Assembly: GCF_017104565.1 (NCBI RefSeq)
Contig: NZ_JAAGPD010000001.1
Coordinates: 620,001-684,000, forward strand
Source of the DNA: Paraburkholderia sp. Tr-20389
Lineage (GTDB): Bacteria > Pseudomonadota > Gammaproteobacteria > Burkholderiales > Burkholderiaceae
DNA: 64,000 nucleotides
Reading direction: 5' to 3'
The notes below the pieces were generated by a model. It made no database searches. It saw nothing but the letters and a program-made list of their open reading frames with translations, and was not told where the DNA came from. The position numbers and the translations under genes are program-made. Of the stretch, positions 1,455 to 13,199 are shown one piece after another (the stretch's first letter is position 1; every line of letters begins with the position of its first letter).

Positions 1455-3560
1455 CTAAACCTCGGCATCCACAAGGTGCCGAGGTTTTTTCATTGCAGTG
1501 CGACTGGCAAGCGCCGCGAGTTCGGTGACGATCGTGCTGATGCTCGTGCCCGTGGGAAAGCAGCCCGCGACGCCTTGTGCCTGCAACGCAAGCTGGCTGG
1601 CGTCGTCGAGGTTTCCGCCCGTCACGACGGGAATGCCTGCTTGCCGCGCGCGCAGTTCGGCGACTAGACCCGACACCAGTTCCCTGTGCGCGCCCGCCAG
1701 CGACGAAATGCCGATCACGTCGACGCCCTGCGCCAACGCCAGCTCGCAGGTTTGCTCGGCGGACGCGAACATTGCGCCCGTCGTCACCGCAAAGCCCGCG
1801 TCCGCCAATGCCGCCGCGACGACGCGTACGCCGCGGTCGTGTCCGTCCTGGCCGAGCTTCGCCAGCAGAATGCGAGGTGCACGCCCCAATCGACGGGCCG
1901 CTTGCGCCACGGCATCGCGCGCCGCCAACCATGGCTCGTCGGACGACAGCGCCTCGCCGTACAGCCCAGCCGAAAGCGGCAAATCGACGGATGGTCGCGG
2001 CCAGACGGATTCGAGCGCCCGCGTACATTCGCCCACTGTCGCGCGCGCCCTTATGCATTCGATGGTCAACGCCAGCAGATTGCGGCTGCCGTCGCGCGCT
2101 GCATGGCGAAGCGCGGCGAGCGCATCGCTCACGCGCCTTGCGTCACGCGTGCGCTTCGTCTGCTCGATGCGGCGCGTTTGCAGCGCCCGAATCTGCGCCG
2201 CGTCCACTTGCTGCGAAGCGACCCGCTCTTCGCCGTCATCCGCTGCGAAGCGGTTCACGCCGACGATCACGCGCTCTCCACTCTCGATCTCCGCCTGCAC
2301 GTGCAGCGCCGACGCGTGAATGCGCTCGCGTACCCAGCCCGACTCTATCGCCTCGATCACACCGCCGCGCTGATCGATTTCATCGAGTATGGCTCGCGCG
2401 CGGTGCGCCATGTCCGCCGTGAGTGCTTCCATCATGTATGAGCCGGCCCACGGATCGGCCACATCGCACACGCCCGTCTCATGCTGCAACACCAGTTGGG
2501 TGTCGCGAGCGAGTCGCGCCGATTGCGCGGACGGCAGCGCCAGCGCCTCGTCATACGCGTTGGTGTGCAGCGACTGCGTACCGCCGAAGATAGCGGCGAG
2601 CGCCTCGACCGTCGTTCGCACGACGTTGTTCATGGGCTTTTGCGCGGTCAGCGACCAGCCCGAGGTCTGACAATGCATCCGCAACGCGCGTGCCTTGTCC
2701 GAGGTCGCGCCGCCTTGCGCCGCGATCTCCGACCACAGCAAGCGCGCGGCTCGCAGTTTCGCGACCTCGACGTAGAAGTCCGTACCGACGCCGAAGAAGA
2801 AACTCATCCGCTCGCATGCATCGTTCGCGGGCATGCCGCGTTGCACGAGCGTCTCGACATAGGTGCGCGCGTTGGCCATCGTCAGTGCAAGTTCGAGCAC
2901 GGCGTCCGCGCCTGCTTCCTGAAAGTGATAGCCCGATACCGACAACGCGTTGAAGCGCGGCACGTTCTGCGCGAGATAGCTGGCAACGTCGGCGGCGATG
3001 CGCAACGACGGCGCGGGCGCAAAGATGCCCGTATTGCGCACCATGAACTCTTTAAGGATGTCGTTCTGAATCGTGCCTCGCAGCCGCGACGGATCCACGC
3101 CGCTCTCTTGCGCAGCGACCATGAACGCGCCGAGCACGGGCAACACGGCGCCATTCATCGTCATCGACACGGAAACGCGCTCAAGCGGAATGCCTTCGAA
3201 CAGACGGAGCATGTCCTCCACGGTATCGATCGCCACGCCCGTCATCCCCACGTCGGCGCTCACGGCGGGATCGTCCGAATCGTAGCCGCGTTGCGTGGGC
3301 AAATCGAACGCGACGGACAAGCCTTGTGCGCCTTCGGCCAACGCCGTGCGGAACGCGAGGTTCGTATCGGCGGCCTGCGCATAGCCAGCGTACTGACGTA
3401 TCGTCCAGGGCTTGTCCGCATACATCGAAGCGAACGGGCCGCGCACGAAGGGCGCTTCGCCGGGCATGCTGTCGAGATGCCCAATGCCGCCGAGATCCGC
3501 CCGCGTGTAGACGCGTTTGAGCGGCACCGCACGGCGGCGCTGCGTCGGCTTCGTGCTCAT
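1455..3560 (-). CDS. scpA: Methylmalonyl-CoA mutase, single-chain adenosylcobalamin enzyme
   Basis: This 701-residue protein interconverts succinyl-CoA and methylmalonyl-CoA using coenzyme B12. The N-terminal TIM-barrel part carries all substrate-determining residues at a constant offset of 32 from the Propionibacterium large subunit: Tyr57 (Y89), Gln165 (Q197), Arg175 (R207) and His212 (H244). The Tyr/Arg pair marks a methylmalonyl rather than isobutyryl mutase. The C-terminal B12 domain has the DxHxxG motif DGHDRG, with His574 as the lower cobalt ligand, plus the following GG loop. No MeaB chaperone or epimerase is nearby. Its ATG overlaps the LnmK-like stop codon as ATGA, so the two are translationally coupled and this is the last gene of the operon. 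I infer that it runs in reverse to supply methylmalonyl-CoA to the LnmK-like protein. Confidence 0.93.
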   Translation of the reverse strand: MSTKPTQRRRAVPLKRVYTRADLGGIGHLDSMPGEAPFVRGPFASMYADKPWTIRQYAGYAQAADTNLAFRTALAEGAQGLSVAFDLPTQRGYDSDDPAVSADVGMTGVAIDTVEDMLRLFEGIPLERVSVSMTMNGAVLPVLGAFMVAAQESGVDPSRLRGTIQNDILKEFMVRNTGIFAPAPSLRIAADVASYLAQNVPRFNALSVSGYHFQEAGADAVLELALTMANARTYVETLVQRGMPANDACERMSFFFGVGTDFYVEVAKLRAARLLWSEIAAQGGATSDKARALRMHCQTSGWSLTAQKPMNNVVRTTVEALAAIFGGTQSLHTNAYDEALALPSAQSARLARDTQLVLQHETGVCDVADPWAGSYMMEALTADMAHRARAILDEIDQRGGVIEAIESGWVRERIHASALHVQAEIESGERVIVGVNRFAADDGEERVASQQVDAAQIRALQTRRIEQTKRTRDARRVSDALAALRHAARDGSRNLLALTIECIRARATVGECTRALESVWPRPSVDLPLSAGLYGEALSSDEPWLAARDAVAQAARRLGRAPRILLAKLGQDGHDRGVRVVAAALADAGFAVTTGAMFASAEQTCELALAQGVDVIGISSLAGAHRELVSGLVAELRARQAGIPVVTGGNLDDASQLALQAQGVAGCFPTGTSISTIVTELAALASRTAMKKPRHLVDAEV
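1458..1490 (+). terminator. Rho-independent terminator inside the 3' end of the antisense mutase gene
   Basis: The stem AACCTCGGCA / TGCCGAGGTT is a perfect 10-bp match with a 9-base loop, followed directly by four further T residues (six T in total). On the plus strand it suits the MocR gene ending at 1230. It lies wholly within the last codons of the convergent methylmalonyl-CoA mutase gene, whose C-terminal residues RHLVDAEV it encodes on the other strand. Confidence 0.8.
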
Positions 3561-4372
3561 CGGCACCTCCAGCGCTTTTCCGTCGTCACGTCGGCGATCT
3601 TCATGCCGTCGCTCTTGCGCCGCACTTCCGTCCAGTGGCGCAGGCCCTGTGCGTCTTCCGACCGGCCGATCATCCGCACGCTCAATGTATCGCCCACATC
3701 GACGTTGCCGTAGTAGAACAGCGAGCGGCTCGCGACGACGGGCGGTTCGTCGTCGCGCCGCCACTGCCACTCGGCGCGATCGACAAAAGCCTGGAAGCTC
3801 GCGAAGTACAGAAAGTCGGCGCCGTTGAAATCGCTATTGGGGCAAGGCAAGAACTCGATCGGCTCGCTCGTTGCAGGCGCGAGATCCGGCAGCGCGGCGC
3901 GGTCCGACGCACGCAGACGCTTGCTCATCTGTGTCATCTGCAACGCCCGCTCGGGCATCGGCACGACATCGCCTGTCAGTCCCGCGAGCGCAGCGCGCGC
4001 GACGCGGCGATTGCTGAGCGCGTCGCCACGCGTGACGAACGCCGACGACATCGACAGCTCCGCGATCTGTGTGCCGCCGCGCACGATGCGGTGCGTGCTG
4101 AAATGACGAACGGGCCCGGTTCTGCACAGCGTGCTATCGATGTCGAACGCGTCGTGTTCGGCGACGGCGTCCAGCCCGCAGGTCTGCAACCGGATCGCTG
4201 TAAAGGCCGCATACGAGCGGCCGCCGTTGTCGTCGTGGAAGTCCGTTTGCTGGCGGCCCGCGTGTGCAGCGAGCGCCTCCCAATGACGATGCCCGCACTC
4301 CTTGAGCAGCCAGTTCTCAGACAGTCCCGTATAGCTCAGTTGCGGCATACCCGCGCGATAGCGATGGATCAT
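3557..4372 (-). CDS. LnmK-like (Pnap_2097-type) acyltransferase/decarboxylase
   Basis: The N-terminal block PQLSYTGLSENWLLKECG and the later segment SDFNGADFLYFASFQAFVDR are characteristic of the LnmK/Pnap_2097 family of double-hotdog proteins. LnmK of leinamycin biosynthesis loads methylmalonyl-CoA and decarboxylates it to propionyl on an acyl carrier protein. A second hotdog-like region with RSLFYYGNVDVGDTLSVRM near residue 220 matches the two-domain layout. The chosen start is two bases after the flavoprotein stop. An internal ATG at 4348 begins MPQLSY and fits family N-termini equally well, and neither has a strong ribosome-binding site. The mutase directly downstream makes the expected substrate. 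No acyl carrier protein or polyketide synthase is visible in the window, so the acyl acceptor is unknown. The family call is good; the reaction here is inferred. Confidence 0.82.
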   Translation of the reverse strand: MIHRYRAGMPQLSYTGLSENWLLKECGHRHWEALAAHAGRQQTDFHDDNGGRSYAAFTAIRLQTCGLDAVAEHDAFDIDSTLCRTGPVRHFSTHRIVRGGTQIAELSMSSAFVTRGDALSNRRVARAALAGLTGDVVPMPERALQMTQMSKRLRASDRAALPDLAPATSEPIEFLPCPNSDFNGADFLYFASFQAFVDRAEWQWRRDDEPPVVASRSLFYYGNVDVGDTLSVRMIGRSEDAQGLRHWTEVRRKSDGMKIADVTTEKRWRCR

Positions 4373-4374
4373 GC

Positions 4375-5667
4375 TCACGCCGCGAGACTCGTCGATGACG
4401 CTTCGAGTGCCGCGCGAATCGTGCCGACGACATGGCCGGCATCGCGCGCAATGCCGGAGAAGCGCCCCGATCCCCATGTGTGCAGCCACGGCAGGCCGAT
4501 GAAATACAAGCCGTCTTGCGGCGTGATGCCGCGAACATGCGCGGGATAGCCTCGCCCGTTGAACACAGGTGCATCGATCCAGCTGAAATCGGGCCTGAAA
4601 CCAATGCACCAGATGATCGATGCAATCCCGCTCGCGGCAAGGTCGAGCGAAGCGCGCTCGCCGCCCGGCTGCCAAACGGGTGCATACGGCAGACCCGCGG
4701 GCGCATCGATGCCCTGCTTGTCGATGAATGCGTCGATGCTCGCATTGATACGGTTGTAGGTATCGTCGGCGCTATCCAGGTTGTCGATCAGGTTCGGCGC
4801 GAAATGCAGGCGGCCTTCGCGCAGATCGTCGAGCCTGCCGTACAGTTCCATGCCTTCCAGCGCGAAGCGGCGCAGATCGATATCACGCCCGCCGTCGCGG
4901 CCCGTCACGTAGTGGTTCGTGTTATCGCGCACGCCTTCGCGCAGCGGATGCTGATCGACGGGCATATCGTAGTAGCGCATGTCCGCGAGCCAGTCGACCA
5001 CGTCGCGACCCCGATAGAAGCGCGCGCAACGCGGCGCTTCGCCGACGGCGAGATACACCTTGCGCCCCGCCAGATGCAGATCCTCCGCAATCTGCGCGCC
5101 CGACTGCCCCGACCCCACGACGAGAACGGCACCTTCTGGCAATGCCTGCGGATTGCGGTAGTGCGACGACTGCATCTGCACGATCTCCGATGGCAGCCGT
5201 TCGGCCATGCGCGGCACGATGGGCGTGTGATACCCGCCCGACGCGACCACGACGTGATCGGCCGTGAAGTCGCCGTTCGACGTGGACACGAGGTAACCGC
5301 CCGACGGCCTGCGCTTGACCTTGCGGACCTCCGTGTGTTCGAGGACGGGTGCATCGACCATGTCGATGAAGCCGTTCAGGTACGCAATGATCTCGTCCTT
5401 CTTCATGAAGCCGTGCGGATCGTCGCCGGTATACGGATAACCCGGCAGCGCGCATTGCCAGTTGGGCGTGACGAGACAGAACGCATCCCAGCGCTGCGAG
5501 CGCCACGTATGCGTGACCGTGTGCTTTTCGAGCACGAGATGATCGATGCCCGCCTCTTTCAGGTAATAGCTGATCGACAGTCCGGCCTGGCCGCCGCCCA
5601 CCACGATGACCGTATGGTGCGGCACGCCGTTCATTGCGTCGGGAGCAAGGGTGTTCGCGTTCGACAT
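4375..5667 (-). CDS. MSMEG_0569-family flavin-dependent oxidoreductase (Nit1C flavoprotein)
   Basis: This is a 430-residue class B flavin monooxygenase-like protein. An FAD-binding GGGQAGLS lies near residue 24, a second dinucleotide site VVGSGQSGAQIAEDL near residue 175, and a conserved late segment YFIGLPWLHTWGSGRF is present. The order of motifs resembles YUCCA-type and N-hydroxylating monooxygenases. The family is one of the fixed members of the Nit1C neighbourhood and is named for its Mycobacterium smegmatis member. A 66-base gap separates it from the small MSMEG_0570-type gene and two bases separate it from the LnmK-like gene, so it bridges the conserved cluster and the two extra genes. 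The substrate is unknown; an N- or C-oxidation of the cluster metabolite is a reasonable inference. Confidence 0.9.
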   Translation of the reverse strand: MSNANTLAPDAMNGVPHHTVIVVGGGQAGLSISYYLKEAGIDHLVLEKHTVTHTWRSQRWDAFCLVTPNWQCALPGYPYTGDDPHGFMKKDEIIAYLNGFIDMVDAPVLEHTEVRKVKRRPSGGYLVSTSNGDFTADHVVVASGGYHTPIVPRMAERLPSEIVQMQSSHYRNPQALPEGAVLVVGSGQSGAQIAEDLHLAGRKVYLAVGEAPRCARFYRGRDVVDWLADMRYYDMPVDQHPLREGVRDNTNHYVTGRDGGRDIDLRRFALEGMELYGRLDDLREGRLHFAPNLIDNLDSADDTYNRINASIDAFIDKQGIDAPAGLPYAPVWQPGGERASLDLAASGIASIIWCIGFRPDFSWIDAPVFNGRGYPAHVRGITPQDGLYFIGLPWLHTWGSGRFSGIARDAGHVVGTIRAALEASSTSLAA

Positions 5668-5733
5668 GATTCGTTCCTGCGTTCGATCTGACGGCGGGCG
5701 TACGCGGCCTTGCGCGACGCGCCGTCCAAGGGT

Positions 5734-6018
5734 TCACAAAAGTTCGACGACCTTGACCTCGGCCTGCGGGTCGATCGCGAAACGACTTGCCTGTGCTTCG
5801 ATCTGCGCGAGCTGATCCATGGCGGCCGAGCAAGCGAAGCCGTATTTCTCGCGCACGCGTTCGGAGCCGATATGCAGTGCTTCGCGTGCGCGCCCGACAA
5901 AATCGGCGAGCGCGTAGCACTGCCCGGCGACGAAGAATTCCCCCACTACCGTCGAAGGGGAATAGCAATTGGCCTCACTGCCGTCCGGCCACTGGACCTT
6001 GAAGTGCATGACTGGCAT
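5734..6018 (-). CDS. MSMEG_0570-family small protein of the Nit1C cluster
   Basis: A 94-residue soluble protein beginning MPVMHFKVQWPDGS. Length and N-terminal sequence match the MSMEG_0570 family, which occurs only beside the Nit6803-type nitrilase genes. The sequence upstream of the start, AAAGGAAACGTG, gives a good ribosome-binding site and fixes the ATG. There is no signal peptide or catalytic motif. Homologues are described as nitrogen-starvation-responsive proteins; the biochemical role is not known. It sits 23 bases after the glycosyltransferase gene. Confidence 0.88.
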   Translation of the reverse strand: MPVMHFKVQWPDGSEANCYSPSTVVGEFFVAGQCYALADFVGRAREALHIGSERVREKYGFACSAAMDQLAQIEAQASRFAIDPQAEVKVVELL

Positions 6019-6041
6019 CACGTTTCCTTTGAATGAAAAAT

Positions 6042-7229
6042 TCAGACGCTGAGCGCTTGCGATAAACGCTGCATATGACGCGCATACAGCGTGATATGAC
6101 GTCGCCCGCTTTCGCGCCAACTGAAGCGCGCCAACAGTTCAGGCACCGCGCATTCGAAGTCGATGCCGCCGCGTTCGTGCAGCGCGTGGCGCAGCGCATC
6201 GGCAATACTGTCGGCGTCGTCAGGTCGAGCCCAGCAGCAGACGCGTTCGTCGAGATAGCCCGTGAACGGTTCGATTTGCGACACGACCACAGGCTTGCCG
6301 GCCGCCAGCGCTTCGAGCGTGACGAGCCCAAAGCCCTCCCGCACCGACACCATTGCGACGACGTCCGCCGCATGCATCAGCGCAACGATGGCCGCGTCGG
6401 CGAGCGGACCGGTAATGACGATCGGTTCGCGTTGCCCGATACGCAGACCGAGCGCCGCAGCGCCCGCCATGAAGCGCTGCGTATAGGCATCGTGGTCGAG
6501 CAGACTTGCGCCGCCCGCAATCACGAGTTGCGCGCCGGGATGCGTGTGAATCAGCAATGCAAACGCGTCGAGCAGTTTCAATGTGTTCTTGCGTTCTTCG
6601 ATACCGCCCACGGCCAGCACGACGGGACCGCTGCCGCCGACGCCCAGCTTCGCGCAGACCTCATCACCGTTCGCTTCGCACGAGCAATGGAAGCGCTGCC
6701 CATCCACGCCGTTATTGACCGTCGACGCTTCGATACCGAACGCGTCGCGCATCGTGCGGGTCCACGCATCGCTCACGCAGAGCACGGTGTCGGCATCGGC
6801 AAACGCGCGCCGTTGCCATTCACGCAGACGGGGATCGCTGAACGCATCGAGATGATGAACCGTGCGCACATAGCCGCGAATCGCGCCCGCTTCGCGCAAT
6901 TCCGCAAGCGCATTCCCGCTGATACTGTCCTGTGCGTGCAGAACGTCGAAACCCGACGCATCATGTTCGAGCAATGCCGCTTTCAATGCCGCGATTCGGG
7001 TCTGAACCATCGCGACCGTGTCGTTGCCGTGCGCGGCGACAGGCGCGAGCACGACGCGGCAAGGCGACGCGCGAAACATCGGCGCGCCGCCGACGGATGG
7101 CGCGAAAACCGTCACGTCCTGCCCGGCTTCATGCAACGCGCGCGCAAGTTCTAGCGTATGCACGACGCCGCCGCGCGGATTGACGGAATGGGTGAACAGC
7201 GCAATGCGCATCGAGGTGCCGCCGTTCAT
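6042..7229 (-). CDS. MSMEG_0565-family GT4 glycosyltransferase of the Nit1C cluster
   Basis: A 395-residue GT-B fold retaining glycosyltransferase. The N-terminal glycine-rich loop is SVNPRGGVVHTLELARAL. The C-terminal half has the nucleotide-sugar-binding GT4 signature, with VAVGGIEERKNTLKLLDAF and the Glu-containing SVREGFGLVTLEALAAGKPV (EX7E motif). The start is supported by GGAGGTGG six to seven bases upstream and by an ATGA overlap with the AIR-synthase-like gene. A glycosyltransferase in the cluster indicates that the product, or an intermediate, is sugar-linked. The sugar donor cannot be told from sequence. Confidence 0.92.
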   Translation of the reverse strand: MNGGTSMRIALFTHSVNPRGGVVHTLELARALHEAGQDVTVFAPSVGGAPMFRASPCRVVLAPVAAHGNDTVAMVQTRIAALKAALLEHDASGFDVLHAQDSISGNALAELREAGAIRGYVRTVHHLDAFSDPRLREWQRRAFADADTVLCVSDAWTRTMRDAFGIEASTVNNGVDGQRFHCSCEANGDEVCAKLGVGGSGPVVLAVGGIEERKNTLKLLDAFALLIHTHPGAQLVIAGGASLLDHDAYTQRFMAGAAALGLRIGQREPIVITGPLADAAIVALMHAADVVAMVSVREGFGLVTLEALAAGKPVVVSQIEPFTGYLDERVCCWARPDDADSIADALRHALHERGGIDFECAVPELLARFSWRESGRRHITLYARHMQRLSQALSV

Positions 7230-8212
7230 GCTTCCACCTCCGCAGGAGCGCCGATGAAAGCACGGTCGTGGAAGCTCCAGAGCAATGCCGATTCGCCCTG
7301 CTGCGTGAGCATCACTTCACGCGAAGCATCGACCTTCCCTACCGCTGCGCACGCGAGGCCGCGCTGCGAGAAGCGCGACAGCACTTCATCCACGTGCCCG
7401 CTTCGCACCGACAGCAAAAAGCCATAGCTCGGAAACGCGCTGAGCCAGCGTTCGAAATCGATCTGATCCGGACGAGGAATCGCGTCGAGATCGATGCGCG
7501 CGCCGACGCCCGAGCATTCGAGCAGCATCAACGCGGTGCCGAGCACGCCCGCCATGCTGATGTCCTTCGCGGCATCGCACAGACCGCTTTCCGCAAGCTG
7601 CGGCAGCAGGTCGAGATCGTCGCGCAGGCGCTGCGCGGGCGCGCCAACCGATGCATTCCAGAACGGATACGGATCTTCGAAGCGGCCGCGCAAGTCGACG
7701 GCCATCACCAGGCTGTCGCCGGGACGCGCGTTGAAGCTCGACAGCAACGCACGCGCGCGGCCCATGATCGACACGGCGAGTTGCGCCTGCGCGCTGCGCG
7801 TGTTGCTGTGCCCGCCGACGACGGGCACGCCATACGCATTCGATGCGGCCGCCATCCCTTCGAGAATCAGCGCTGCCGGATCGAGCCCGTCGCTCCACAA
7901 CGCATCGACGACAGCGAGCGGTCTTCCGCCCATCGCATACACATCGCTGACATTGACCATCACGCTGCTGTAACCGGCGAACCAGGGCATCGTTTCGACG
8001 AAATCGCTGACCAGTCCTTCGATCGCGAACAGCAGGTAGCCATCGCCGTCGGCCAGCGCCGCGCAGTCGTCGCCCAATGCAACGGCTTGTGCGAGATCGC
8101 GCGTGCCGTTCGGCAAGCCCGACGCCAGCGACGCCACCACGCCCGCAATATCGGTCTTATGATGAAACCCGCGGCTTTCACGGATGCGTTGGGCAAGCGC
8201 GTGCAGACTCAT
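7226..8212 (-). CDS. AIR-synthase-related protein (sll0787 / MSMEG_0567 C-terminal family)
   Basis: A 328-residue member of the PurM/ThiL/SelD ATP-binding fold. The N-terminal ATP-site motif is GDDCAALADGDGYLL, the central signature is VMVNVSDVYAMGGRPLAVVD, and a VVGGHSNTR segment follows. Proteins of this fold activate a carbonyl, phosphate or sulfur substrate with ATP. In mycobacteria this domain is fused to a GNAT domain; here, as in cyanobacteria, the two are separate genes. They are joined by a 4-base ATGA overlap at the start, with another at the stop. The specific substrate in the Nit1C pathway is unknown. Confidence 0.9.
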   Translation of the reverse strand: MSLHALAQRIRESRGFHHKTDIAGVVASLASGLPNGTRDLAQAVALGDDCAALADGDGYLLFAIEGLVSDFVETMPWFAGYSSVMVNVSDVYAMGGRPLAVVDALWSDGLDPAALILEGMAAASNAYGVPVVGGHSNTRSAQAQLAVSIMGRARALLSSFNARPGDSLVMAVDLRGRFEDPYPFWNASVGAPAQRLRDDLDLLPQLAESGLCDAAKDISMAGVLGTALMLLECSGVGARIDLDAIPRPDQIDFERWLSAFPSYGFLLSVRSGHVDEVLSRFSQRGLACAAVGKVDASREVMLTQQGESALLWSFHDRAFIGAPAEVEA

Positions 8213-8772
8213 GAGCGGCCTCGCGCCGACGTCACGAACCCGCTCTCCGGCGTGAAGCACGGCGGGTAATGTTCGAGGTCCGCTTCCATCAGATGATGCG
8301 GCCGCCCGAACAGCGTTTCCTCCGCGACCGTTTGCCAATGCAGCCGCCGGAACAGCGGCACGTTCTGGTTCTGCACATGCGCGAGAAACGTCTCGCACCC
8401 CAGTGCATGCGCGCTGCTCACGGCAAGACGAATCAGCGTCGATCCCAGCTTGCCGTGCGAACGGAACGCCGCATGCACGGCAAGCCGCGAGCCGAGCCAT
8501 GTGCGCGGGCGCGTCTCGTGAATCCGCACCGTGCCGACCACCTGCTCCGGCATGCCCGCAATGCAGCTCAGTGCAACCAGCAGTTTTGCGTCACGGTCGA
8601 TCTCGTCGCGGTCGTCGCCGACGAAGATGCCCTGTTCGACGCAGAACACCGCGCGCCGCAGCGCATACGCTTCCTTGCTTTCCCACGGCAGCGTCGCCCA
8701 CTTGACGCGGTACTCGGCGGGTGTGAAGGCGAGCGGCAGTGCGTCGAGCTCGTCGATGGATTCGCAGAACAT
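8209..8772 (-). CDS. GNAT-family N-acyltransferase (sll0786 / MSMEG_0567 N-terminal family)
   Basis: A 187-residue GNAT-fold protein. The early segment SKEAYALRRAVFCVEQGIF is the acceptor-side helix typical of this family and of AHL-synthase-like GNATs. The acyl-CoA-binding motif region is RLAVHAAFRSHGKLGSTLIR, followed by ALGCETFLAHVQNQNVPLF. It starts two bases after the radical SAM gene stop and overlaps the next gene by four bases, so the products are probably made in step. The acyl donor and acceptor are not known. Confidence 0.9.
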   Translation of the reverse strand: MFCESIDELDALPLAFTPAEYRVKWATLPWESKEAYALRRAVFCVEQGIFVGDDRDEIDRDAKLLVALSCIAGMPEQVVGTVRIHETRPRTWLGSRLAVHAAFRSHGKLGSTLIRLAVSSAHALGCETFLAHVQNQNVPLFRRLHWQTVAEETLFGRPHHLMEADLEHYPPCFTPESGFVTSARGRS

Positions 8773-8774
8773 GA

Positions 8775-9908
8775 TCAGTCCTCGTACGATGCCAGCGACG
8801 AACATGCGCCGCATTTGCCGCAACCGGCCTTGATATCGGCGGAACGCATCTGCGCGTCGCGCAACATCGCGCCGAGCGGCGCCAGAATCGACTTCATGAA
8901 CTCCGGCGAAGGGGCAGGATGATCTTCGAGCGGCGTGCCGCTGATCGGCACGAACGGCACGACGAACGGATACACGCCGATCTCGATGAGTTCGCGTGAG
9001 ATCGACAGGATCGCCTCCGCCGTATCGCCGAGACCCGCGAGGATGTAGGTGCTGACCTGCCCTTTGCCGAACACGGCGACGGCCGCCCTGAACGCTTCCA
9101 TGTAACGCTCGACGGGCACGCTCGCCTTGCCCGGCATCACGCGCGCGCGCACCTCGGGCGTCACCACTTCGAGATGCATGCCGAGCGTGTCGATGCCGCT
9201 CGCCTTCATGCGCTCGAACCACGCATCGTCGTCGGGCGGTTCGCATTGCGCCTGAATGGGAAGATTGACGGCTGCCTTGATCGCGAACGCGCTTTCGCAC
9301 AGGATCTGCGCGCCGCGATCCGGCGTGGGCGGCGTGCCCGTGGTCAGCACCATGTGCTTCACACCGTCGAGCAACACGGCGGCACGCGCCACTTCCGCAA
9401 GCTGCTCCGGTGTCTTGCGCGCAATCGTGCGCCCCGCCGCGAGCGACTGGCCGATCGCGCAGAACTTGCACGTCTTCTTGCGGCTCTCGTAGCGGATGCA
9501 GGTTTGCAGCACCGTCGTCGCGAGCACATCGGTGCCGTGCAGCGTCGCGATGTGCGAATACGGCACGCCGTCGAGCGTCTGCAACTGCGTGAAGCGCGGC
9601 GCTTTCGGGAAGCTGATGCTGGCAATCGGGATCGTGCCGCGCAGCAGCGCACTCGCGCCGGCTTCGTCAGGCGCGCCTGCGACGAACGGCGAATTCCACG
9701 CGGAACTGGTGTGCACGGGCACCATGATCGTCACGCCGTCCACGGTCACGGCCTTGTGGTCCGACGGCCCTGCGCCGCCGCGCCGGCTTGCGGCACCCGC
9801 ATTCGGGTCGACGAGACGCAAACCGGCCGACTGCAACTCCGTGCGCAGTTCCATCATCTGACGCTGCGTGCGCGGCTCAGCCGGCGACGGATTCATGCTG
9901 GCATTCAT
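8775..9908 (-). CDS. MSMEG_0568-family radical SAM protein with atypical cysteine spacing
   Basis: A 377-residue protein of the MSMEG_0568 radical SAM family, invariant in Nit1C clusters. The candidate cluster-binding cysteines are C137, C147 and C150, a CX9CX2C spacing in place of the classical CX3CX2C. Barrel motifs follow: [12 protein letters not shown] for the SAM region and [14 protein letters not shown] second cysteine group, CGKCGAC, sits near the C-terminus and could hold an auxiliary iron-sulfur cluster. The start has GGAGG in good position and overlaps the nitrilase gene by 32 bases. It is expected to be oxygen-sensitive and to perform a carbon- or nitrogen-centred radical step; the reaction is unknown. 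Confidence 0.93.
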
Positions 9909-10899
9909 CCTGGCCTCCCTCCGTGGTGTCGGGCGCGGCGTCCGCGCCGGCACGTTCGAACGACATCGACATCGGCGCAACGGGCGTCGCCGGGCGATCG
10001 TTGATGGCAAGACTCAGCAACTCGGGCCGCGCATAGTGGCCGACCGAGTCCATCATCCGTTTGCGCTTGGTGATCAGCGACATGTCGAGATCCGCGACGA
10101 CCATGCCTTCGCCCTCGCGCAGCGGCTCAGCCAGATGCTGCCCTTCGGGCGACACGATCGCCGTCATGCAGCCGCCGCGCAACGCCTTTTGCAGCTTCGG
10201 GTCCGGCGTCACCGCTTCGATCTGCGCGTCGCTCAGCCAGCCCGTCGAGTTGACGACGAAGCAGCCCGATTCGAGCGCGTGATGACGGATCGTCACTTCG
10301 ATCTGCTCGGCGAAGATGGGACCGACGAGCGAACCTGGAAACTGGCTGCAATGGATTTCTTCGTGCTGCGTCATCAGCGCATAGCGCGCGAGCGGGTTGT
10401 AGTGTTCCCAGCACGCCAGCGCGCCGACGCGCGCGATGCCCGTGTGCGCGACCTTCAGGCCCGCTGCATCGCCCTGGCCCCAGATCATCCGTTCATGAAA
10501 CGTCGGCGTGATCTTGCGACGCTTGAGCACGAGACGCCCGTCGACGTCGAACACGAGTTGCGTGTTGTACAGGCTGCCGTGATCGCGCTCGTTGACGCCG
10601 AGCACGACAACCATCGCATGACGGCGCGCGCGCTCGCTCACGGCCTGCGTGACAGGACCGGGGACAACTACGGCCTGTTCATAGAGGCGCATGTGATCGG
10701 CACCCGACGCGACAGGCGGACGCACGAACGAAAAGTATGGGTAGTACGGTACGAACGTCTCGGGGAAGACGATCAACTGCACGCCTTGCGCCGCCACTTC
10801 GTCGATGGCGGCGCATACCCTGTCGAGCGTGCCGCCGGGTCGCTCGAACTCCGGTGCAATCTGCACCGCGGCTGCACGGATGATTCGCTGGTCGGACAT
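9877..10899 (-). CDS. Nit6803-type nitrilase (Sll0784 family)
   Basis: A 340-residue carbon-nitrogen hydrolase. The catalytic residues Glu47, Lys129 and Cys163, with the helper Glu136, lie at a constant offset of six from Synechocystis Nit6803 (E53, K135, C169, E142), so the active site looks fully intact. The motifs are FPETF, RRKITPT and [11 protein letters not shown]. Nitrilases convert nitriles to carboxylic acids plus ammonia and act as spiral oligomers. The ATG used here begins [13 protein letters not shown]; a GTG nine bases upstream is possible. It follows the MSMEG_0572-type gene by 18 bases. In Pseudomonas fluorescens NCIMB 11764 the orthologous cluster has been linked to assimilation of cyanide nitrogen. 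The physiological nitrile is not established. Confidence 0.95.
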
Positions 10900-10917
10900 G
10901 ATCGGCACCCGGCGCGC

Positions 10918-11400
10918 TCAGACAGTCCACGTGTGGATGATCAGCGCGTTCTCCTTGCGATGGAGCAACTGCAGATCGAGCACATCAAGCGGATTGATCG
11001 GCCGGATGCCTTCGATCAGCGACGCTTCGCCATGACCGTACAGCGCCTGCAACGCAAAGCGGCATGCGTAGACCTTGCCGCCCTCTTCCATGAACTTGAC
11101 CAGTTGCTTGTTGAAGTTCAGATGACCGGGAAAGGCTTCGTCGCCGAGCGTCGGAAAGCCGCGCTGCAGACCGAGCGTGACGCCGGGCCCGTAAAGCAGC
11201 ACCGACGTATCGAAGCCCTTGCGCTGCAGGCGCGTGGCCTGCAGCAGATTCACGAAGCCGATCGAACCTTCGAATGCAACGGTATGAAAGGTGACGAGTG
11301 CTTTCTCGCCGGGCTCGGCCTTGACGTCAGGGAAGACCTTCTCTTCGTAATCGACCAGATAATCGCCTTTCTGATGCATAGGTTGATTGACGGCAGGCAT
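10918..11400 (-). CDS. MSMEG_0572/Sll0783-family protein, first gene of the Nit1C operon
   Basis: A 160-residue soluble protein recognised by its cluster position and by segments such as [22 protein letters not shown] and [21 protein letters not shown]. The second of these resembles the cysteine-bearing loop of DsrE-fold proteins. The ATG is chosen because GGAGAG lies just upstream; a TTG 12 bases earlier has no such support. Synechocystis Sll0783 is strongly induced by nitrogen starvation and affects polyhydroxybutyrate accumulation. The biochemical function is unknown. The gene is preceded by a sigma-54-type promoter, in keeping with nitrogen control. Confidence 0.9.
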
Positions 11401-11697: not shown

Positions 11698-11807
11698 GAT
11701 CAGGTTTTGAATTGAATGAAAAGCGATTTATTTTTTGCGGAGTTCGCGTGGTACTTTGAATGACGCATTCATTCATTCGCTCATTCATTGGCATCGGGAA
11801 TCACGGC

Positions 11808-13199
11808 ATGGACAGTCTCACGCACCACTGGCTCAGGCGGCTCACCGAGAGCCGCAAACCGGCGTATCTCGTGATACCGGATCTGATCGAAGAAGATCTC
11901 GCGAGCGGACGTCTGCGTCCGCGCGACCGCCTGCCCGGTCTGCGCGATCTGGCGGGTGCCTTGCAACTGAACTACACGACCGTCGCTCGTGCCTACGCGG
12001 AGGCGCGCAAGCGCGGCCTGCTCGATGCGCGCGCGGGCAGCGGCACGTTCGTGCGTGGACGCACGCAGACGCTGCCGCTTGCAGGCGGCAGCAGTGTCGA
12101 GATGTCGATGAACATGCCGCCCGAACCGCCCGAGCTTGCGGCACGGCTGAGAGAATCGTCGGCGCAACTGCTCTCGCAGACGGATCCTTATCGCCTGCTG
12201 CGCTACCAGGATTTCGGCGGCACACCCGACGACCGCGCAGCGGGTCGCGCATGGCTCAAGGAACGCGTACCCGATTGCGAAGACGATACCGTGCTCGTGT
12301 GTCCGGGCATCCATAGCGCGCTCGTTGCCCTCGTCTCGCAACTCGCGAGGCCGGGCGAAACCATTTGCCTCGATACGCTCGCGTATCCAGGCATCAAGGC
12401 CATTGCGTCGCAATTGGGCGTGCGCCTTCAGCCATTGCCGCGCGACGAAGAGGGTCCGCTGCCGCATGCGTTCGAAGCGCTCTGCAAAACGGAAAAGCCC
12501 GGTGCGTTCTATTGCAATCCGACGTTGCAGAATCCGAGCACGCTGACGCTGTCGGTACAGCGGCGCGAAGCGCTGGCCGATATCGCGCTGCGCTACAGCG
12601 TCCCGATCATCGAAGACGATGCGTACGGCTGGCTGCCCGCGAACAAGCCGGTCGCGCTCGCGTCGCTTGCACCTGAACTGACGTGGTACGTGACGGGCTT
12701 TTCGAAAACGTTCGGCGCAGGGCTGCGCGTCGCGTATCTGCGTGCGCCTACGTCGCGACAGACGCAGCGCGTGGCGGGTGCGCTGCGCGCGACGACGGTG
12801 ATGCCGAGTCCCTTCACGGTGATGCTCGCGACACAATGGGTCAACGACGGCACCGCGCATGACATGCTCGATGCGATCCGCAAGGAAGCGAACGCGCGCC
12901 AGTCAATCGCATCACAGGAACTCGCGGACTGGCGTTACGATGCGCAGCCCGACGGGTTTCATCTGTGGTTGCCGATTCCCGCGCAGTGCGACTGGAGCGC
13001 GCCCGACCTCGCGCTGCAACTGCGCAATCAGGGCGTGGGTGCCGTCGCGGGTGCGGCCTTTTCGACGGATGGCAATCCACCCAATACGATCCGCGTGTGC
13101 CTGGGCGGTCCGCAGGACAGAAACGATTGCCGCGACGCGTTGCAACGCGTCGCGGAAACGTTGAACGATCCGCATCATCTGCACATTCCGATGATGTGA
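11808..13199 (+). CDS. MocR-family transcriptional regulator, divergent from the Nit1C operon
   Basis: A 463-residue protein with an N-terminal GntR winged helix (about residues 10-75; SGRLRPRDRLPGLRDLAG, recognition helix NYTTVARAYAEA, wing GSGTFVRG). A class I aminotransferase-like domain follows, with NPTLQNPSTL and the PLP lysine Lys300 in GFSKTFGAG. It is divergent from the operon and paralogous to the truncated regulator at the left window edge. The ATG at 11808 places the helix at the usual distance; an in-frame ATG at 11760 would add 16 residues from repetitive DNA and is less likely. It probably senses PLP with an amino-compound ligand and controls the divergent operon and itself. 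Activation of a sigma-54 promoter would need a separate enhancer-binding protein. Confidence 0.93.
   Translation: MDSLTHHWLRRLTESRKPAYLVIPDLIEEDLASGRLRPRDRLPGLRDLAGALQLNYTTVARAYAEARKRGLLDARAGSGTFVRGRTQTLPLAGGSSVEMSMNMPPEPPELAARLRESSAQLLSQTDPYRLLRYQDFGGTPDDRAAGRAWLKERVPDCEDDTVLVCPGIHSALVALVSQLARPGETICLDTLAYPGIKAIASQLGVRLQPLPRDEEGPLPHAFEALCKTEKPGAFYCNPTLQNPSTLTLSVQRREALADIALRYSVPIIEDDAYGWLPANKPVALASLAPELTWYVTGFSKTFGAGLRVAYLRAPTSRQTQRVAGALRATTVMPSPFTVMLATQWVNDGTAHDMLDAIRKEANARQSIASQELADWRYDAQPDGFHLWLPIPAQCDWSAPDLALQLRNQGVGAVAGAAFSTDGNPPNTIRVCLGGPQDRNDCRDALQRVAETLNDPHHLHIPMM

Follow-up and report, generated by a model that had tools for sequence, protein, structure and literature searches.

The closest described relatives of the locus treated here are the cyanide-linked Nit1C cluster, also named nitBCDEFGH (Podar 2005, PMC1199592; PMC11049912), and LnmK, the bifunctional methylmalonyl-CoA acyltransferase/decarboxylase of leinamycin biosynthesis. 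Nit1C is found in several bacterial phyla (PMC1199592), and some strains are reported to require it for growth on cyanide (PMC9716671, PMC11049912). A title cited in PMC8666670 describes LnmK as specific for (2R)-methylmalonyl-CoA, and the Red Sea NitraS-ATII operon (PMC4751646) is, in the text available, only listed by its genes, with a hypothetical protein that is not recognised as LnmK-like and for which no role is proposed. The window analysed here, a stretch of 64,000 nucleotides of Paraburkholderia sp. Tr-20389 (contig NZ_JAAGPD010000001.1), holds a ten-gene minus-strand operon running from an ATG at 11400 to a stop codon at 1455. Its first eight genes and their order are those of Nit1C, including the variable glycosyltransferase noted by Podar (PMC1199592) in Burkholderia and Rubrivivax, and it carries two more genes at its 3' end than the Nit1C clusters of PMC1199592 and PMC11049912, coding for an LnmK-like protein (gene 9) and a methylmalonyl-CoA mutase (gene 10). 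Taking the first two proposed steps together, it is moderately probable that these two genes form a two-enzyme acyl-supply module added to Nit1C, which would be a clue to what the cluster builds. The genes of the operon, with their NCBIfam models, are the following:

10918..11400, minus strand: MSMEG_0572/NitB (0572), first gene (TIGR04044 288 bits, cut-off 110; invariant Cys113)
9877..10899, minus strand: nitrilase of the Nit6803/NitC family (TIGR04048 578 bits, cut-off 503)
8775..9908, minus strand: MSMEG_0568/NitD radical SAM protein (TIGR04043 599 bits)
8209..8772, minus strand: MSMEG_0567/NitE GNAT acyltransferase (TIGR04045 246 bits)
7226..8212, minus strand: sll0787/NitF AIR-synthase-like ATPase (TIGR04049 489 bits)
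6042..7229, minus strand: MSMEG_0565 glycosyltransferase, an optional gene (TIGR04047 501 bits)
5734..6018, minus strand: MSMEG_0570/NitG protein (0570) (TIGR04042 134 bits)
4375..5667, minus strand: MSMEG_0569/NitH flavoprotein (TIGR04046 696 bits)
3557..4372, minus strand: Pnap_2097/LnmK-like double hot-dog protein, gene 9 (TIGR04099, TIGR04098)
1455..3560, minus strand: cluster-type methylmalonyl-CoA mutase, gene 10 and last (NF006944)

The 0572 and nitrilase genes are 18 bases apart, the nitrilase and radical SAM genes overlap by 32 bases, the radical SAM and GNAT genes are separated by 2 bases, and 4-base ATGA overlaps join the GNAT to the ATPase gene and the latter to the glycosyltransferase gene. 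Gaps of 23 bases (glycosyltransferase/0570) and 66 bases (0570/flavoprotein, the largest) follow, and gene 9 is joined to gene 10 by a further 4-base ATGA overlap. The flavoprotein gene ends 2 bases before gene 9 if the latter starts at ATG 4372, or shares a 4-base GTGA overlap with it if the start is GTG 4378. Reading of the sequence confirmed the ten leftward genes, gaps of at most 66 bases and single 32-base overlap described in the first-pass annotation, while its four ATGA overlaps become three ATGA and perhaps one GTGA. These short gaps and overlaps leave hardly any space for internal promoters; a sigma-70-like promoter scan of the operon gave 0 sites where 1.9 were expected, so that the scan has no power and leaves room for an internal promoter. 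Each of the eight core genes exceeds the cut-off of its Nit1C family (TIGR04042-04049), in agreement with the annotation's conserved set. By gene-family membership the operon belongs to Nit1C, an already known system whose tie to cyanide growth or induction is a link from the literature, and gene 9 belongs to a family already named Pnap_2097 by NCBI.

The linkage of gene 9 to Nit1C was examined in 128 Paraburkholderia genomes. TIGR04044, the model of the first Nit1C gene, was matched over cut-off in 83 of them (91 copies) and TIGR04099 in 44 (45 copies), the LnmK-like gene being present in 44 of the 83 Nit1C genomes vs none of the other 45, a linkage far from chance. This is the opposite of an absence from nearly all related Nit1C operons, which would have spoken against a module, and it upholds the earlier proposal that the mutase and LnmK-like genes are a Nit1C-tied pair. 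By coordinates, 43 of the 45 TIGR04099 copies have a TIGR04044 copy no more than 10 kb away, and the genomes of the remaining two (G391:C2, G334:C8) have Nit1C elsewhere. The mutase gene stands directly behind the LnmK-like gene in all 45 copies (44 fetched, the 45th being the window), in broken form in L080. Forty-eight TIGR04044 copies have no LnmK-like gene nearby; of the 36 that were fetched, 31 have the seven core genes complete, one is truncated where its contig ends and four are divergent copies in a different setting. None of the 36 holds an intact mutase gene, and one (L114) holds a 126-residue scrap of it. Divergent 0572 copies (54-59% identical) were seen at L118-L121, in two genomes, two beside a nitrilase, without the rest of Nit1C.

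Beyond the genus, TIGR04044 was found in 109 of 398 genomes of a family draw, 76 of them outside Paraburkholderia; 40 loci were taken from 39 of the latter, and the LnmK-like gene is intact in 18 and absent in 18, while L145 and L174 have fragments only, L143 is cut by the fetch boundary and L150 ends at a contig edge. Among 84,980 species genomes, a query able to detect nothing but close relatives picked up 37 loci, from beta- and alphaproteobacteria, with all seven core genes adjoining in 33. A phylum draw gave 6 of 398 genomes over cut-off, four with the gene adjoining Nit1C and two without (G890, G1031; 28-29% identical). Sixty plasmid records matched, of which eight were viewed: six have annotated Nit1C genes, the Novosphingobium plasmid is unannotated with core genes detected by tblastn, and the Thalassospira plasmid has a different gene cluster that includes an acyl carrier protein (ACP). 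In one Polaromonas locus (L047) the LnmK-like gene is present and TIGR04044 is not found in the genome record. The gene order is altered in L143 and in Azospirillum, with the linkage kept. In four annotated alphaproteobacterial plasmid loci (L215, L217, L218, L221) a DUF983 gene was seen close to Nit1C, joined in L215 by a 5-aminolevulinate-synthase-type gene; L221, a Methylocystis plasmid with a scattered Nit1C set, has lyase-family genes, an OsmC protein gene and cytochrome bd-type oxidase genes nearby.

The inheritance of the two genes was followed over 129 loci, 63 of which have both genes, 51 neither, 15 the LnmK-like gene only and none the mutase only. Loci with remnants only (L145, L174, L114) were scored as having neither, and L106 and L150, plus L177 for the mutase trait, were left out for their contig ends. 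On a FastTree phylogeny of the nitrilase and radical SAM proteins each trait needs 17 changes, and among 11 supported independent pairs that differ in the LnmK-like gene the mutase follows in nine, is the same in two and goes the opposite way in none (median sign-test p 0.004). Since adjoining genes can be removed by one deletion, this correlation shows joint inheritance and does not in itself demonstrate function. More telling is joint decay: the genomes of L145 and L174, left with LnmK fragments, have no PF01642 match at E 1e-20, and in L114 the LnmK-like gene is gone while the 126-residue scrap of the mutase remains. Close pairs such as L077 and L112 share 95% identity as far as the start of the LnmK-like gene and diverge within its first bases, suggesting that the pair was lost as a unit. 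Since near-identical core clusters occur without it, the pair counts as an optional add-on. The Nit1C-tied pair of the first-pass annotation stands, but its description was incomplete in this respect and in missing a divergent regulator (see below). In addition, three orphan modules were found (L084, L080, L163), consisting of flavoprotein, LnmK-like and mutase genes with or without 0570, or 0572 and GNAT; the flavoprotein is the core gene retained beside the pair in all three, and all three genomes also hold a full Nit1C. At L140 a transposase-like gene (9625-10722), of TnpB-type look by eye, lies between the LnmK-like and mutase genes.

These data bear on whether the two genes could be passengers, functionally unconnected with Nit1C, a reading that fits the lack of the pair in roughly half of the genus-draw Nit1C clusters and an evolution of both genes faster than that of most core genes. 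Their median pN/pS (ratio of nonsynonymous to synonymous change) over eight close pairs is 0.17 and 0.24, respectively, which denotes purifying selection weaker than on most core genes; these values are nevertheless well below 1, and passengers would hardly show the 44/83 vs 0/45 distribution, a linkage that spans many families and survives changed gene orders, or three orphan modules that all lie in genomes with a full Nit1C. Consequently, passenger genes are a very improbable explanation.

Concerning the proposed enzyme of the LnmK type, gene 9 scores 355 bits against TIGR04099 (cut-off 125) and 308 bits against TIGR04098, LnmK_bifunc (cut-off 100), and its product has a double hot-dog fold, with LnmK as the best solved-fold match, in agreement with the LnmK/Pnap_2097 assignment made beforehand. 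Its Tyr54, conserved in 83 of 83 aligned rows, aligns with LnmK Tyr62, an active-site residue, and its invariant Asn183-Gly184 corresponds to the Asn-Gly loop of LnmK. The protein differs from LnmK in being only about 20% identical, shorter and without a match to Pfam LnmK_N_HDF (E 0.001), a model against which the protein of L213 scores 225 bits. L213 is an LnmK-type locus, with a 3127-residue open reading frame (polyketide synthase-like by eye), LnmK, a carrier protein and 3-hydroxy-3-methylglutaryl-CoA (HMG-CoA) synthase, whereas gene 9 has no carrier protein or HMG-CoA synthase as a neighbour. At L212 (3613-5022) a hexapeptide acyltransferase domain is followed by an in-frame LnmK-like domain interrupted by a stop codon. 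On these grounds gene 9 is proposed to encode a methylmalonyl-CoA decarboxylase/acyltransferase. The same fold would also suit an enzyme of the acyl-ACP thioesterase kind, be it a thioesterase or an acyltransferase, acting on another CoA ester, with the mutase feeding hydrolysis or isomerising a Nit1C intermediate, which appears quite unlikely.

Gene 10 matches the methylmalonyl-CoA mutase model NF006944 (972 bits, cut-off 876) over its full length, including the B12 domain, with the B12 motif DGHDRG recognised by eye. As the annotation had pointed out, it has Tyr57, Arg175 and His212, fitting methylmalonyl-CoA, and these are present in 64 of 64 aligned cluster mutases; they correspond to the substrate-site residues Tyr89, Arg207 and His244. 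Housekeeping methylmalonyl-CoA mutases share the substrate residues and the B12 domain with the cluster mutases and are 49-52% identical to them. In a quick tree, with 33 of the 64 cluster rows and a program warning about long branches among the outer rows, the two kinds form separate clades, supported by approximate likelihood-ratio tests (SH-aLRT) of 99 for the cluster and 98 for the housekeeping mutases. Extra PF01642 matches in G405, G359, G356, G364, G354 and G314 were considered as housekeeping mutases and rejected, being 40-42% identical, with Gly for Met46 and a clade of their own. This separate group, with the same identity to the cluster mutase, is seen at L191-L195 and L199, in six genomes in or near Paraburkholderia, and our guess is that it is ethylmalonyl-CoA-mutase-like.

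Methylmalonyl-CoA mutase makes the (2R) isomer, the one for which LnmK is described as specific, and the source of this substrate could be compared between loci with and without an adjoining mutase gene. Sixteen LnmK-positive loci have no adjoining mutase (L044-L059, from Azospirillum, Azorhizobium, Rhodoferax, Polaromonas, Methylocella and bins; L044 sits on a 4.8-kb contig). A housekeeping-type mutase occurs elsewhere in 13 of these 16 genomes vs 0 of 63 with a cluster mutase (22 and 44 genomes, three shared, with G756 and G473 included despite assembly breaks, the cluster of G473 being divided over two contigs). Twelve of the 13 have matches of 768-811 bits and one a partial match (G422), eleven having been placed by residues or tree and G435 and G436 by bit score alone; the other three of the 16 have a fragment only (G434), a mutase of another type (G431) and nothing at E 1e-20 (G437). 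The other PF01642 matches in the 63 cluster-mutase genomes are of the fused IcmF type, judged by frame length and score, or of the 40-42% group. The accessory genes follow the same division: over 31 genomes searched for each, 9 of 12 housekeeping genomes have an epimerase over cut-off and 11 of 12 have MeaB, vs 0 of 18 cluster-mutase genomes, including that of the window, for either; the 31st genome (G502) has neither over cut-off. The remaining three housekeeping genomes (Rhodoferax, Polaromonas) stay below the epimerase cut-off, with matches of 39.8-42.6 bits located 5-7 kb from the mutase genes.

This pattern argues against a catabolic mutase that converts propionate-derived methylmalonyl-CoA into succinyl-CoA, with the LnmK-like protein as only a drain. 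Methylmalonyl-CoA made by the carboxylase is the (2S) isomer, which the mutase cannot use without an epimerase, and the cluster-mutase genomes have neither epimerase nor MeaB over cut-off. Enzymes of this family are nevertheless established to run in both directions, and all 31 genomes give weak matches to the epimerase model (at most 36.8 bits in those with a cluster mutase), leaving room for a divergent epimerase there. On the whole, the evidence places the cluster mutase outside a propionate pathway, and a catabolic role is hardly credible. Three points weigh against a mutase that supplies the LnmK-like enzyme: these weak epimerase-like matches, which slightly lower the confidence in the first two steps; one real exception in a good genome, L149 of G502, with an intact LnmK-like gene and no mutase; and the fact that the contrast between housekeeping and cluster mutases follows lineage borders, so that it represents few independent events.

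In the proposed mechanism the mutase would turn succinyl-CoA into (2R)-methylmalonyl-CoA, which the LnmK-like enzyme would bind and decarboxylate, handing on a propionyl unit either released as propionyl-CoA or passed directly to an acceptor. That the mutase supplies the LnmK-like enzyme is very likely, and decarboxylation to a propionyl unit is quite probable; we infer the reaction direction, the decarboxylation and the propionyl product from homology, residues and comparative genomics. Propionyl would end on an amino-bearing intermediate or product of Nit1C, most likely through the GNAT or the LnmK-like enzyme itself, with no operon-encoded ACP; such N-acylation is put forward tentatively, and the acceptor and final molecule are guessed. 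Candidate acceptors would be the substrate of the GNAT and the invariant Cys113 of 0572. In MadA (YiiD), described in PMC8666670, a GNAT and a hot-dog decarboxylase are joined. MadA resembles the present case in pairing these two activities, and is unlike gene 9 in having a single hot-dog domain, a malonyl-ACP substrate and the GNAT fused in one protein.

The absence of an ACP noted in the first-pass annotation holds for the ten operon genes, none of which has an NCBIfam or Pfam carrier protein match, and no carrier protein is annotated in the six viewed Nit1C plasmid loci; carrier proteins accompany two LnmK-like relatives located outside Nit1C. No ACP or other acceptor was recognised downstream of the LnmK-like gene when the first 70 residues of roughly picked open reading frames were inspected by eye at 15 loci, 12 of them without an adjoining mutase. 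Nor do the core proteins change visibly with the module: over 17 close pairs, the columns that best track it reach six pairs with two or three opposite, or five with none, in a comparison without a null model. As no column stands out, a re-specialised GNAT or flavoprotein is not shown. The core pathway apparently functions whether or not the module is present, so that an optional tailoring or supply role describes the module best. The lack of a carrier protein and the unchanged core would also suit a carbon-side shunt, in which the mutase and a stand-alone decarboxylase make free propionyl-CoA from succinyl-CoA for ordinary metabolism. The net chemistry is identical, E. coli Sbm (ScpA) and ScpB likewise convert succinyl-CoA into propionyl-CoA, and the module is lost from near-identical clusters. 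However, the tight and repeated linkage to Nit1C over many families is hard to square with a general shunt, and the lineages seen with a housekeeping mutase keep only the LnmK-like gene in the cluster. Such a shunt is therefore considered unlikely.

As for the remaining core genes, 34 of the 77 distinct loci where the LnmK-like gene is intact lack a glycosyltransferase match in the fetched stretch, indicating that this enzyme is not needed; the probably glycosylated product of the first-pass annotation is accordingly not a general feature. Cys113 of 0572 is invariant in 107 of 107 rows. The fold model of 0572 is poor (predicted local distance difference test, pLDDT, 53) and not interpretable, and a phmmer search of the PDB gave nothing below E 0.02; by eye the protein may be DsrE-like.

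Upstream of the operon lies the regulator mentioned above:

11760..13199, plus strand: divergent MocR-type regulator with a GntR helix-turn-helix and an aminotransferase-like domain of the pyridoxal phosphate (PLP) type (Pfam GntR 47 bits, Aminotran_1_2 84 bits)

Its nearest NCBIfam model is EhuR, below cut-off. A MocR-type match stands divergently upstream of 0572 in 129 of 136 distinct 0572-holding loci, in Burkholderiaceae, Methylophilaceae and Alphaproteobacteria, whereas Pseudomonas Nit1C has, according to PMC11049912, the Fis-type sigma-54 regulator NitA. MocR proteins bind PLP and control PLP, gamma-aminobutyric acid (GABA) and taurine genes, as stated in PMC5320631, in the main text of which the word nitrilase is absent. 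A rather doubtful extension of the supply module would be that Nit1C makes an amino-bearing molecule, that the carrier-free LnmK-type enzyme delivers propionyl to this molecule, to the GNAT or to the 0572 cysteine as a substitute carrier, and that two forms of the product, one bearing the C3 acyl group and one lacking it, are sensed by the PLP-type MocR protein.

The LnmK-like/Pnap_2097 gene in Nit1C, its pairing with a mutase and the complementarity with housekeeping mutases were not found among the literature matches listed, in a search that left subscription journals mostly outside. If the module is real, a C3 acyl group would be expected on the product or on an intermediate, where it could be labelled and traced by mass spectrometry, close relatives with and without the module offering a ready-made comparison, and LnmK chemistry, known from polyketide assembly lines, would be extended to a carrier-free setting.

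At the 3' end of the operon a second MocR-type gene (7-1230), cut by the window start, is convergent on it and has the same place in few close relatives only. A terminator-like site lies at this end of the operon:

1457..1487, plus strand: 13-pair terminator-like hairpin with a T tail; it overlaps the mutase gene at its 3' end

Six terminator-like sites were found where 8.9 were expected from shuffles, so that the hairpin is weak on its own; as it coincides with the final mutase codons, the convergent MocR gene may have its terminator within the mutase frame.

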